From a virus, in the IMG/VR virus record IMGVR_UViG_3300030333_001235, positions 1 through 40,773 of that record: DNA of 40,773 nt; one strand, given 5' to 3'. Shown here one piece after another: positions 2,333 through 37,609 of the stretch (position 1 is its first letter; the number at the start of each line of letters is the position of its first letter). Made by a program: the position numbers and the translations under genes. Under the pieces are notes generated by a model. That model was given only the letters and a program-made list of their open reading frames with translations, was not told the DNA's origin and did not search any database.

Positions 2333-3814
2333 TTAGACCACCACTAAGTTTCCTACCATTGCTGGATGCATTGTGCACTGATAAACATAAGTTGTACCAG
2401 CACTTAAAGATTGAGGTACTGTCCATAATTGGACTCCTTCCTGACTACCACTAACACCGTCAGTTACAGATCCACCACCTGAGGTTGTCCTCAAAGCAAA
2501 TGGATGTGCAGCACCTGTTTCATTATTAAATCTATATGTGAATCCACGATAAACATATATCGTAGGATTATCTGTTGTAGTATTGACACCACTACCTGAG
2601 AATCTATACGCACTGTTACCAGTAGCAGATACTATAAGGTTAAGGCAAGGAGATTCAATTGGATCCCATGATGTGCCATTATATACAACGTTATCACCCT
2701 CCATTGCTCCACCACTGAGGTAGAATGAAGAGTTAACTGTAACTGTATTGGAAGTTACAGCAGTTACAATACCATTACCACCAGCTACAGATAAAGTGGA
2801 GGTTGACAACTGTGCAGTTGTTGTACCACTATCACCAGTAACTGTTTTATAAACTTCTTGGACTATATTAGGTGCATCATTGGTGATCGTAAGGTCATCA
2901 CCAGATACAGCAGTGCTAATTGATGTACCACCAATTACATTGATAGTTGCAGTAGCACTACTAGCAGTCTTACTTCCTGAATCACTTCCTATTACGCCAT
3001 AGGCATTTTGGTTTAGGTCACCAAGGGTGCCTGTCATGTTTATGGTGAGGGTGTCTCCTGTGATTGCAGTCGAGATTTCAGTGCCTCCCGCAATTGTAAG
3101 AACATCAGTAGGAGCACTAGCAGTAGTACTGCCAGTGTCAGCAGTGATTCCTTCAAATAAATTTTGAGTGGTTCCACCGCCACCGCCACCCGATGAATCA
3201 TCGTTTGCAGGTTCCCATGCAGCATTGCTTGCATTCCATTTAATAACTTGTCCATCACTAGGTCCGCCTCCAACGGTCATATCTACATCACTAAGTAACC
3301 CAAGACTACTGTTTTCACTTATTAAGGGTACCCATCCACCACTTGTAGCAACTCTTCCTTTACCATCACCAGATACATATGCAAACATACCATGATGAGC
3401 AACATTATCAGGAAGATCTCCTGTAGTTGGGAAATGATTGCTATATTTTAGTTTACCATCAGCACCATCAACGTAAGTTAGAGCAGAACCTGTACCACCT
3501 GTCCAAAACTTAACGTCTCCTGTACCATTTGGTTTAATTTGCACGTCACCATTTGCGGATGATGTTATATCAAATCCACCTACATCTAAATTTGCTGTTA
3601 ACGCATCAACATGACCCTCTACAAACTGAGCACCATTCCATTTGAGGACTTGTCCAGTTGAGGGAGTTGTTACATTTATTTGAAGATTGGTATCGTTGCC
3701 AAGTTGTGTATACAACTCGTCTATGACGCTATTAAGTTTAATAGCACCATCTCTCAGACTGTCTCCAGTCCCGTCATTCGCTGACGATCCAATATTGAGG
3801 GTTTGTTTAGCCAT
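2333..3814 (-). CDS. Tail/baseplate protein with C-terminal blue-copper-type cupredoxin domain (493 aa)
   Basis: This is a virion structural protein by context. The N-terminus (QTLNIGSSANDGTGDSLRDG, then INSVIDELY-like helix) matches a leader common in marine T4-like phage tail proteins. Residues 40-210 contain display-type beta segments ending in a GGGGGG linker. Residues about 220-370 hold three copies of a 45-residue beta unit (DSGxxTA ... GGxxIxTAVxGDxLTI). The C-terminal 75 residues look like a cupredoxin: IYVYRGFTYRF, His437 in AAHPFAL, WTVP, and VYQCTMHPAMVGNLVVV with Cys480, His483 and Met486. Those four residues are the classic type 1 copper ligands. That copper is actually bound is inferred. 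A CCTAAATA element 21 bases upstream may be its promoter. Confidence 0.85.
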   Translation of the reverse strand: MAKQTLNIGSSANDGTGDSLRDGAIKLNSVIDELYTQLGNDTNLQINVTTPSTGQVLKWNGAQFVEGHVDALTANLDVGGFDITSSANGDVQIKPNGTGDVKFWTGGTGSALTYVDGADGKLKYSNHFPTTGDLPDNVAHHGMFAYVSGDGKGRVATSGGWVPLISENSSLGLLSDVDMTVGGGPSDGQVIKWNASNAAWEPANDDSSGGGGGGTTQNLFEGITADTGSTTASAPTDVLTIAGGTEISTAITGDTLTINMTGTLGDLNQNAYGVIGSDSGSKTASSATATINVIGGTSISTAVSGDDLTITNDAPNIVQEVYKTVTGDSGTTTAQLSTSTLSVAGGNGIVTAVTSNTVTVNSSFYLSGGAMEGDNVVYNGTSWDPIESPCLNLIVSATGNSAYRFSGSGVNTTTDNPTIYVYRGFTYRFNNETGAAHPFALRTTSGGGSVTDGVSGSQEGVQLWTVPQSLSAGTTYVYQCTMHPAMVGNLVVV

Positions 3815-3835: not shown

Positions 3836-3843
3836 TATTTAGG
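3836..3843 (-). promoter_or_regulatory. Possible late promoter CCTAAATA overlapping the stop of the YHYH gene
   Basis: The minus strand reads ACC TAA ATA at the end of the 662-residue gene, so the stop codon TAA is part of a TAAATA element. It lies 21 bases before the ATG at 3814, the same spacing seen for the NATAAATA elements upstream of gp25 and of the 59-residue ORF. It differs from TATAAATA at the first two positions, so it is a weaker match. Confidence 0.45.
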
Positions 3844-5827
3844 TGCCATCGAAGGTTTGTGCTGTTGAATCTAGTGTGCTGCTAGTGCTATCGAAGCGAT
3901 TAGCAGTATCACCACCTCCACCACTACCAGTTACTGTCAATACAGCTGGTTGTGAATCCAAAGGAGAGTTTTGTGCTTGTGTTGATGCCCCTACAGGACC
4001 AGAGATCCTACAGCGATATCGATATCCTGTCATATATGACAAGGAACTAATAGAATATGTGTTAGCAGTTGCTCCAGTAATAGCAGCAAACGCAAATCCA
4101 CCATCAGTAGACCTATACCACTGATATGTCAATGGTCCATCCTCAGGAAGTATCTGAGCTTGGACTGTGAATGTAGCAGTCTGATTAGCATTGACTGTCA
4201 CATTAGTAGGTTGCAGTGTAAACTGCAATGTTGGGACAACTGTGCCACCAGAGATAGCAAAGTTATTACCTTGATTTGTATGGAAATGACACCAATACCA
4301 AAGTATGTCAGGTGCATTACCAGGTACAACCCATTCCATTACACGACTGGTTGCATTTACAAATCCCATATGATATCCCATCATACTGACGACGACACCA
4401 TCCAACTTATAGGTGATACCCATCATATAATGGTCATGACCAGCTAATTCACCATCTTCTCCAGGTGATACCATGATAGGATGGTAAACACCACCGAAGG
4501 TTGCATTAGAATCATCATCTTGATTGAAGATATACTTCGTAGTTTCTCTCTCAAGAGCGAAATTAGCAGGTTTTTCAACACCATCAAAGTAGAATACCCC
4601 TGTTGATTGACCAGTTACGGTGTCTGTGCCTACTGTAACGGTAATAGTGGTCTCTGGTAACGATGCACCAGGAGCAACAGGTGCTACAGTGAACGTGGTG
4701 TCAATAGTTTCTCTTGTCTTATTACCAATAATGAAAGGAAACTTAACATTATCTACATTGTCTGGGTCTACTGTAAGGAAATAAGCATATGTTCCATCAG
4801 GATACTCAGGTGTAATGCAAAATCTACCATTATGAATGTCTAAATCCCCAGTTCCATCAACATACTCATAGTCTTCCATGAGTGTTCCAGCAGGTGGATT
4901 GTCTGAAGTGCTGCCATAATCAGGTCTTCCAGGTGCTTCTGTGTCTTTTACAGCATATGAAGTCCTCATTGTCCTTGTACCACTCAAATTATCCCAATTT
5001 GTGTCGTATGCGTAAGGTCCATAGATGGGAAATCCATCAAATGCTATGCCAATTATCTTAGAATGACCGTCAGGATGACGAATATTGTTACCATTATACT
5101 GAGTTGATCCATAATAATCATTATAACTCGCTATAGATGACCCTTCTTTCCAACAATCTAAGAAATGTGGGTCATGATAGTGATATTGACCACTCTGTTC
5201 TGGGTGTCCACCACAAGAATCTTCTCCAGAATCAACAAAAGGTATATCTCCAGCAGCAACCCAACTAAATCCTGGTGGTGGATTGAGTCCAGTACCAGCA
5301 GAAGGGTTAAAAATAGAAACACCATTAGCAGCAATACCAATTGCACCTAATGGAGTGTCAGTTCTTCCATTTCTTTGATCATAATATGAATAGGTACCAG
5401 TTACAGGAGTAGGTGCTTGTGTATCTACAATCAAATCTAACTGATCATCTGAGGATAACCAACACTCACCAGCAATAGAAGTAAATGTTGTACCTTTATA
5501 AACGAATTTCTGTTTTAAACCATCACTAAAAGTGAATAGTAAATGGTCTCCCTCATCAATTTGATTGTTAGTAAACAATACAAGATCATTTACGGATATT
5601 GATATTGTTCTAAGGTATCCGTCATGCGTATATTGATTATTATCAAATGTGCGAGCAATTCCAAATGTTCCTCCACGGTATAAAAAGTCATGGTCGAAAT
5701 CCTGTTCAGTAACTGTATTAGGGTTATTATCATTAGGAAACGTACCAAAAGATACAGGAGCAGGGAGACCATCCGATGCTACTGTAATAACTTTTGTTGC
5801 TTCGTTGTAGGAGGCTGTTGCTGCCAT
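3839..5827 (-). CDS. YHYH-domain structural protein with cupredoxin-like and Ig-like domains (662 aa)
   Basis: This is a virion-associated protein by context, probably a baseplate or tail decoration. The central domain (about residues 145-385) is a YHYH domain: PLGAIGIAANGVSIFNP, the tetrad YHYH at about 215-218, IIGIAFDGFPIYGPYAY, and NGRFCITPEYPDGTYAYF. The YHYH family is widespread but biochemically uncharacterised. Residues about 435-525 resemble a cupredoxin: VYHPIMVS near 449 and WYWCHFHTNQGNN near 512. The Cys-x-x-His pair is kept, but no Met occupies the usual axial position. Residues about 533-625 form an Ig-like domain (TYQWYRSTDGG ... YRCRISG), followed by a Gly linker and a repetitive FDSTSSTLDST tail. 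The start ATG (5827) is 14 bases after the giant gene's stop. The YHYH core is shared with a degenerate copy inside the giant protein. Confidence 0.88.
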   Translation of the reverse strand: MAATASYNEATKVITVASDGLPAPVSFGTFPNDNNPNTVTEQDFDHDFLYRGGTFGIARTFDNNQYTHDGYLRTISISVNDLVLFTNNQIDEGDHLLFTFSDGLKQKFVYKGTTFTSIAGECWLSSDDQLDLIVDTQAPTPVTGTYSYYDQRNGRTDTPLGAIGIAANGVSIFNPSAGTGLNPPPGFSWVAAGDIPFVDSGEDSCGGHPEQSGQYHYHDPHFLDCWKEGSSIASYNDYYGSTQYNGNNIRHPDGHSKIIGIAFDGFPIYGPYAYDTNWDNLSGTRTMRTSYAVKDTEAPGRPDYGSTSDNPPAGTLMEDYEYVDGTGDLDIHNGRFCITPEYPDGTYAYFLTVDPDNVDNVKFPFIIGNKTRETIDTTFTVAPVAPGASLPETTITVTVGTDTVTGQSTGVFYFDGVEKPANFALERETTKYIFNQDDDSNATFGGVYHPIMVSPGEDGELAGHDHYMMGITYKLDGVVVSMMGYHMGFVNATSRVMEWVVPGNAPDILWYWCHFHTNQGNNFAISGGTVVPTLQFTLQPTNVTVNANQTATFTVQAQILPEDGPLTYQWYRSTDGGFAFAAITGATANTYSISSLSYMTGYRYRCRISGPVGASTQAQNSPLDSQPAVLTVTGSGGGGDTANRFDSTSSTLDSTAQTFDGT

Positions 5828-37075: not shown

Positions 37076-37609
37076 CTATGATGATAGCACAGTTGCATGC
37101 CCCCACGCAACCACAGATGAACAAGGGTAACTCCAACCAGGAAATCCAACTCCTAGAGGGTCTAATATCCTTGCAATAGGTAATTTCAAAGCAAATACTG
37201 TTAAAGTTGTTGCCATAACAATCCTAGTATGCCCTACACCCCCTCCATCTTCGATTGTAAGGGTGCTACACGGTATAGGAGTGGGGGTTGGACACATCGC
37301 TTTACCGCAAGGACACATGTACACAACAATATTAGTACATACCGCTATATGCGGTGTGAATGTATCACCCAGTAACATAATGGGAATCCTATTCACTAGG
37401 ACAGTTGCCCTATAAGGTGTAACAGGAAATATAGGAATTAGGGGTTGAGGAGGCCACCAACAGGTAAACTCCTTAATGACTATGCTGTAGGGGATTGGAG
37501 GGGTGCCACACGCTTGTACAGAGTGGACAGTGGATGGTAAGCACAATCCATGACCACTACAGGGTAGTCCATTTAAAGATGATACTGGTAGTAGATATCC
37601 AAATGCCAT
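37076..37609 (-). CDS. PAAR-like spike-tip protein (177 aa)
   Basis: PAAR proteins cap the central spike of contractile tails (gp5.4 in T4) and bind a metal near the tip. Two or three PAAR-type units can be read: ATVLVNRIPIMLLGDTFTPH, HTRIVMATTLTVFALKLPIARILDPLG, and the final SSVVAWGHATVLSS. They match the pattern x-TVxVNGxPxARxGDP and the closing SxTVxV strand. Ten Cys are present, including CPCGKAMCP, and several His, which could bind metal; this is inferred. The ATG at 37609 overlaps the TAA of the upstream gene by one base (TAATG), so the two are translationally coupled. It ends in tandem TAG stops. The gene lies just upstream of gp25, consistent with a hub or spike component. Confidence 0.78.
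   Translation of the reverse strand: MAFGYLLPVSSLNGLPCSGHGLCLPSTVHSVQACGTPPIPYSIVIKEFTCWWPPQPLIPIFPVTPYRATVLVNRIPIMLLGDTFTPHIAVCTNIVVYMCPCGKAMCPTPTPIPCSTLTIEDGGGVGHTRIVMATTLTVFALKLPIARILDPLGVGFPGWSYPCSSVVAWGHATVLSS

Follow-up and report, generated by a model that had tools for sequence, protein, structure and literature searches.

A cupredoxin domain with a conserved type 1 copper ligand set is predicted at the C-terminus of a cyanophage baseplate wedge protein

Why should a protein of a phage baseplate end in the ligand set of a blue copper protein, and might that set hold a metal on the virus particle? This question is raised by a 40,773-base virus record from IMG/VR, hereafter called the window. 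Its genes lie on the minus strand, and their order of transcription includes those for a gp25-like baseplate wedge protein, a gp6-like protein, a giant protein of 9458 residues, a 662-residue YHYH protein, the 493-residue protein in question and a 613-residue protein that resembles a baseplate wedge subunit (Table 1). The 9458-residue structural ORF (positions 5842-34218, minus strand) contains 21 copies of [FL][TSR]C..D..YPR, a repeat bearing Cys/His, between residues ~5500 and 8180, as well as a YHYH-like DGxPIYGP motif at 1443. A PAAR-like protein (phrog_281; 37076-37609, minus strand) has 10 cysteines in 177 residues.

Table 1. Features of the gp9/gp10-like protein and of the neighbouring YHYH protein, in window coordinates.
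Feature	Position	Strand	Basis
gp9/gp10-like baseplate wedge (tail-fibre connector) protein, 493 aa	2333..3814	-	ORF; phrog_677 E 1.3e-141; PF07880 E 8.8e-10
T4 gp9/10-like N-terminal attachment region, residues 2-99	3518..3811	-	PF07880; PDB: T4 gp10 E 7.4e-6, T4 gp9 E 0.017
Predicted C-terminal cupredoxin domain (Met-type), residues 386-493	2336..2659	-	AlphaFold2 pLDDT 96.3; Foldseek/VIA; amicyanin profile match
His437, putative copper ligand	2504..2506	-	Amicyanin alignment; invariant in alignments A1, A2
Cys480, putative copper ligand	2375..2377	-	Amicyanin alignment; invariant in alignments A1, A2
His483, putative copper ligand	2366..2368	-	Amicyanin alignment; invariant in alignments A1, A2
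Met486, putative axial ligand	2357..2359	-	Amicyanin alignment; invariant in alignments A1, A2
Neighbouring baseplate/virion protein, 662 aa: YHYH + second cupredoxin-like + Ig-like domains	3839..5827	-	PF14240 E 2.6e-38; phrog_25852; Ig_3 weak
YHYH domain, residues 159-355	4763..5353	-	PF14240
Second cupredoxin-like domain, Gln-type: His449, Cys513, His516, Gln519	4250..4660	-	Alignment A3; model pLDDT 88.7; fold matches

The 493-residue protein comes from a marine cyanomyovirus and belongs with the T4 gp9/gp10-like proteins of the baseplate wedge. Its N-terminus matches T4_gp9_10_N with 39.4 bits against a cut-off of 25, the closest solved structures to this part are T4 gp10 and gp9, and phrog_677 is annotated as ‘baseplate wedge tail fiber protein connector’. 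With the whole protein as query, 319 records match at E <= 1e-5, and every one is a phage labelled Synechococcus, Cyanophage, Prochlorococcus, Marine or Pelagibacter. The initial annotation had called the product a phage tail protein, which is right as to the tail but too generic, given that PF07880, phrog_677 and the T4 structures all place it at the baseplate wedge as a tail-fibre connector.

The four ligands that had been proposed, His437, Cys480, His483 and Met486, are indeed the residues found at these positions of the ORF. The pattern H-x35-60-C-x2-4-H-x2-4-M occurs once in the protein and in none of the eight other coding frames scanned in the window; a chance motif was rejected on the basis of shuffling, which produced the pattern in 14 of 20,000 permutations of the protein, and of conservation in the family. 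The claim that order and spacing follow blue copper proteins also holds, as a residue-by-residue alignment sets the four positions opposite His53, Cys92, His95 and Met98 of amicyanin, the established copper ligands of that protein, and the ligand loop has the same C-x2-H-x2-M spacing.

The last ~108 residues of the protein are predicted at high confidence to form a cupredoxin. A metal-free AlphaFold2 model of residues 386-493, built with 66 relatives, reached a pLDDT of 96.3 and a pTM of 0.88, and by both Foldseek and VIA-align it has the Greek-key beta-sandwich of cupredoxins. Among the 34 PDB chains that Foldseek matched at E <= 0.001 (TM-scores modest, 0.41-0.58), 33 are titled as copper proteins, including nitrite reductases, amicyanins, rusticyanins, plastocyanins and laccases, while for the last chain, 3cvd_A, the title leaves the molecule unnamed. 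Whether any cupredoxin fold would be predicted here was the point on which the initial annotation depended, and the model answers it in the affirmative. The domain is nevertheless larger than the final 75 residues originally assigned to it: the ligand-bearing part is C-terminal as described, and the fold begins at residue ~386.

The best Foldseek match (E 7.8e-5) is 6tfo_B, the N-terminal type 1 copper domain of the Hyphomicrobium denitrificans nitrite reductase, and the best VIA-align match is 2dv6_A (Z 10.3, rmsd 2.4, 93 aligned residues, 22% identity), where the alignment covers residues 24-131 of this three-domain nitrite reductase. The titles of the Foldseek matches also include amicyanin M98 variants in the Cu(II) form. 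In the DSSP assignment of the domain model, a strand (90-95) ends at the cysteine and is followed by a loop (96-101) and a further strand (102-107), so that the His and Met ligands fall in the loop after the Cys-terminated strand.

Sequence comparisons lead to the same family. Profile searches of the PDB found amicyanin at E 1.3e-4 (profile A1) and 0.0027 (A2); the A2 profile also matched an antibody scFv (E 0.003) through two weak stretches, and plastocyanin weakly, at E 0.023 and up. A search of the PDB with the protein as a single sequence reached amicyanin at E 0.25 only, and the single-sequence Pfam search gave Copper-bind at E 0.11. The window domain stays below the gathering score of PF00127 Copper-bind (13.4 versus 21.2 bits) and far below the TIGR02657 amicyanin cut-off (19.4 versus 110.2 bits). 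Across 19 family members, PF00127 matches 11 at E <= 1, with a best value of 0.0041, and TIGR02657 matches 17 at the same threshold.

The ligands are retained in every complete Met-type copy examined, including those with loops of altered length, so the observation that all four are kept extends from the window to its relatives. A tblastn search, which makes no selection on the copper site, found the 75-residue stretch in 296 of 50,697 phage records, and a divergent query found the domain in 341. Twenty-four phage records were fetched, 18 from the whole-protein (319) and 75-residue (296) match lists and six from the divergent-query list (341). All four ligands are intact in the 18 homologues first sampled (18/18) and in the 26 Met-type copies present across the 24 records (26/26). 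For IMG/VR, no more than the best 80 loci of each scan were kept (out of 323 in one scan and 564 in another); the set of 129 unique complete domains leaves out L094 and L204, whose domains are cut by contig ends, and matches of <60 bits. Because the scan patterns contained the Cys-His-Met stretch, raw counts favour intact sites, and we therefore give the counts for two subsets: the four ligands are kept in 101 of 101 domains retrievable via an unrelated RGxTY pattern, and in 19 of 19 that fit no Cys-site scan pattern. The loop is C-x2-H-x2-M in 120 of the 129 domains, C-x4-H-x2-M in seven and C-x2-H-x3-M in two. Retention of the ligands despite such insertions is as predicted for a metal site.

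A second, less certain domain of this kind lies in the neighbouring YHYH protein, where the residues that would form the site are His449 and Cys513-x2-His516-x2-Gln519, and where His466 and His514 are conserved as well. The model of this region (pLDDT 88.7) gave VIA Z-scores of 8.8 to rusticyanin and to nitrite reductase, and its Foldseek list is filled by copper proteins, the best E being only 0.002. A PDB search with the A3 sequence profile retrieved no copper protein; the assignment thus rests on model and motif, and a cupredoxin fold is likely but not firm. With glutamine as axial ligand the site would be stellacyanin-like, and in cyanophage relatives this position is taken by methionine. 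In some relatives of gp9 a single protein combines the two domain types (L074, L075, L133 and L134). For the YHYH domain itself, PMC7824862 predicts a hydrolase that depends on metal and has a Zn site; the main text of that paper mentions neither cupredoxin nor plastocyanin nor copper.

The second domain type can lose its ligands, and when it does so it loses them as a set. In alignment A3, His, Cys, His and Gln are kept in 36 of 37 rows, the exception (L269) having lost all four. Copies in phage records comprise 13 with a full ligand set, 10 with none and 0 mixed. A wider set of 81 rows was scored for His, Cys and His, with the C-x2-H-x2-M of Met-axial copies read from the sequences, since the wider alignment misplaces the axial column for most of these copies; 59 rows have all three residues (58 when the window query is set aside), 11 have none, 0 are mixed, and the 11 rows gapped at the first His were left out of the count. 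Of the 11 copies without ligands, ten are one and the same second copy, shared by related phage genes, so that the 11 represent about two independent losses. This copy is found in a gene after gp9 that encodes tandem cupredoxin-like domains, the first with His, Cys, His and Met and the second without ligands (L114, L115, L117, L118, L120-L123, L126 and L127). As these cases show, a cupredoxin-like domain can persist without ligands, and its ligands go together.

The cupredoxin domain is also present in other contexts, among them unrelated proteins of virions and fibres. According to database descriptions, predicted structures that contain it include proximal tail fibres, S8-peptidase-domain proteins, YHYH proteins and other cyanophage virion proteins. 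The Prochlorococcus podovirus P-SCSP2 (L271:3941-5254) encodes a hypothetical protein of 438 residues with the domain at its N-terminus, and P-HM1 has it twice in a long protein. Sixteen loci with the domain were found in bacterial assemblies, in records labelled planctomycete, proteobacterial, Bacteroidetes, Marinifilum, Prochlorococcus single-cell and, in one case, Clostridiaceae; the search pattern held Cys and one His, so ligand retention in this group is not independent evidence. Some of these loci may be phage sequence, and in one (L280) the two-gene domain order is the same as in phages. The domain appears to be a mobile module that large surface and virion proteins of marine origin have in common. 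It occurs in large repeat-rich Prochlorococcus single-cell proteins (L287, L289 and L290) and in short Marinifilum proteins from open frames of ~156 residues (L285, L286, L288 and L291), and the model matches three BFVD entries (A0A481YVH3, A0A481Z6J5 and A0A481Z7Q7) described as ‘Beta-sandwich proteins’ of environmental Marseillevirus and Pithovirus genomes.

Direct placement on a particle comes from a homologue. S-SZBM1_206, a protein of 498 residues that keeps all four ligands (locus L129), is listed among the proteins identified by mass spectrometry in CsCl-purified virions, with 9 peptides and 24.9% coverage (Table 1 of PMC9146016), and its neighbour S-SZBM1_207 is listed there with 1 peptide. 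The virion location suggested for the domain is thus supported for S-SZBM1_206 by that list of virion proteins, and would extend to the protein of the window by homology.

We propose that the C-terminal cupredoxin holds a true mononuclear metal site of type 1 (blue-copper-like), displayed on the virion, that its metal is most likely copper, and that the metal works as a structural lock; we give this joint reading a probability of roughly 0.58. A metal site is suggested because the ligands are kept with the spacing rules and, in the related domain, are lost together. The combination of this ligand set with this fold is typical of type 1 copper, which makes copper the likeliest metal. Since the cytoplasm of cyanobacteria holds little free copper, the metal would be bound after the protein leaves the host cytoplasm. 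There it would link the His strand with the C-terminal Cys-His-Met loop, and might in this way steady a small exposed domain whose task is to dock a tail fibre or to contact the cell surface. The T4 counterpart is a trimer at the baseplate rim, and by this analogy each particle could display several to 18 sites.

Since the domain is shared by many related viruses, their particles probably carry copper. More broadly stated, our best guess is that copper or another thiophilic metal would be bound outside the host as a structural lock, within a domain for docking or adhesion at the surface. Stabilisation is also favoured among the three roles that had been considered at the outset, the others being copper sensing and redox chemistry, because fibres and adhesin-like proteins contain the module too and because no redox partner was seen.

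The main rival on purpose is that bound copper does work in redox chemistry or copper sensing, such that a change in its load or oxidation state at the host surface alters the baseplate and helps to trigger it. The domain does sit in a baseplate wedge protein, the retained site is of a redox-competent type, and neighbouring baseplate genes offer two ligand types, Met-axial and Gln-axial. However, neither an electron-transfer partner nor a sensor element was seen, and we regard such a role as unlikely.

The main rival on the metal is zinc: the site would hold this or some other thiophilic metal, or a mixture of metals, in the virion. Cupredoxin sites accept Zn and Hg in vitro, and assembly takes place in a cytoplasm where free copper is very scarce. 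Against this, the His-Cys-His-Met set, the cysteine that ends a strand and the amicyanin loop lengths are those of a typical copper site, and the C-x4-H and H-x3-M variants follow loops of known blue copper proteins. A different metal therefore seems improbable to us, to about the same degree as the redox or sensing role, even though the adjacent YHYH domain is predicted to bind Zn in PMC7824862.

A more elaborate and more doubtful variant makes copper a licence for activity outside the cell. The baseplate would be built metal-free in the copper-poor cytoplasm, and both cupredoxins, the Met-type in the gp9-like protein and the Gln-type beside YHYH, would load copper only later, after lysis or at the host envelope. 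Loading would lock the docking domains in their active form and would keep them from firing too early within the host.

It is also conceivable, though distinctly improbable, that only the fold matters, a stable beta-sandwich having been borrowed from a copper protein with the ligands left as fossils. Phage adhesins use many beta-sandwiches, and the same baseplate loci do contain cupredoxin-like copies without ligands. Those copies, however, show that the ligands can be lost, and lost together, whereas the Met-type domain is intact in every complete copy; fossil ligands were rejected on these grounds, and from the pattern of conservation a metal site under selection appears much more likely than a relic.

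That the protein is a plastocyanin-like auxiliary metabolic product (PetE) supporting host photosynthesis is very improbable and was rejected, for although one relative, from Synechococcus phage S-SCSM2R, is so annotated and petE homologues carried by cyanophages are reported in PMC2984593, the domain is the C-terminal part of a baseplate protein, a homologue of that protein is listed in virions (PMC9146016), and the sequence profiles lie nearer to amicyanin than to plastocyanin. The S-SCSM2R protein (L113:2716-3222, annotated PetE) starts like the gp9-type protein of S-SSM6a/S-SSM7 and has a cupredoxin of the baseplate type, which suggests that it is likely a mislabelled virion protein. Cupredoxin-bearing virion proteins can thus be mistaken for the photosynthesis gene petE.

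Copper bound at this site would mean that abundant marine viruses bear the metal on their tails in stoichiometric amounts. Another metal would then join the discussion of metals in phage tails, in which the Ferrojan-horse idea reportedly concerns iron. Adsorption of cyanophages could depend on the copper chemistry of seawater, and the site would provide a spectroscopic handle on a baseplate.

Both fold and site are well known; their placement on a phage baseplate is apparently undescribed, and is widespread in cyanophages. A cupredoxin on a phage baseplate was not found in searches of one open-licence library, which covers few subscription journals. The closest system by sequence is amicyanin (1aac, TIGR02657), the best profile match in the PDB, with the four ligands in the same order and the same loop. 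It differs in the residue after the first histidine, which is Asn in amicyanin and Pro438 in the phage domain, and in being a free periplasmic electron carrier rather than the C-terminal part of a baseplate protein. By structure, the closest is the N-terminal type 1 copper domain of the Hyphomicrobium denitrificans nitrite reductase (2dv6, 6tfo), although this belongs to an enzyme and is only 22% identical. Plastocyanin (PetE) of cyanobacteria and cyanophages shares the cupredoxin fold with His-Cys-His-Met, but it is a soluble lumen protein with a C-x2-H-x4-M loop and a weaker sequence match. Among virion proteins, those with a YHYH domain are represented by the neighbouring protein of the window, and T4 gp9 and gp10 have the N-terminal attachment region in common with the 493-residue protein. 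T4-like phages of other hosts, as judged from the best 60 of 1845 records, have matches confined to the N-terminal part and lying outside the cupredoxin region.
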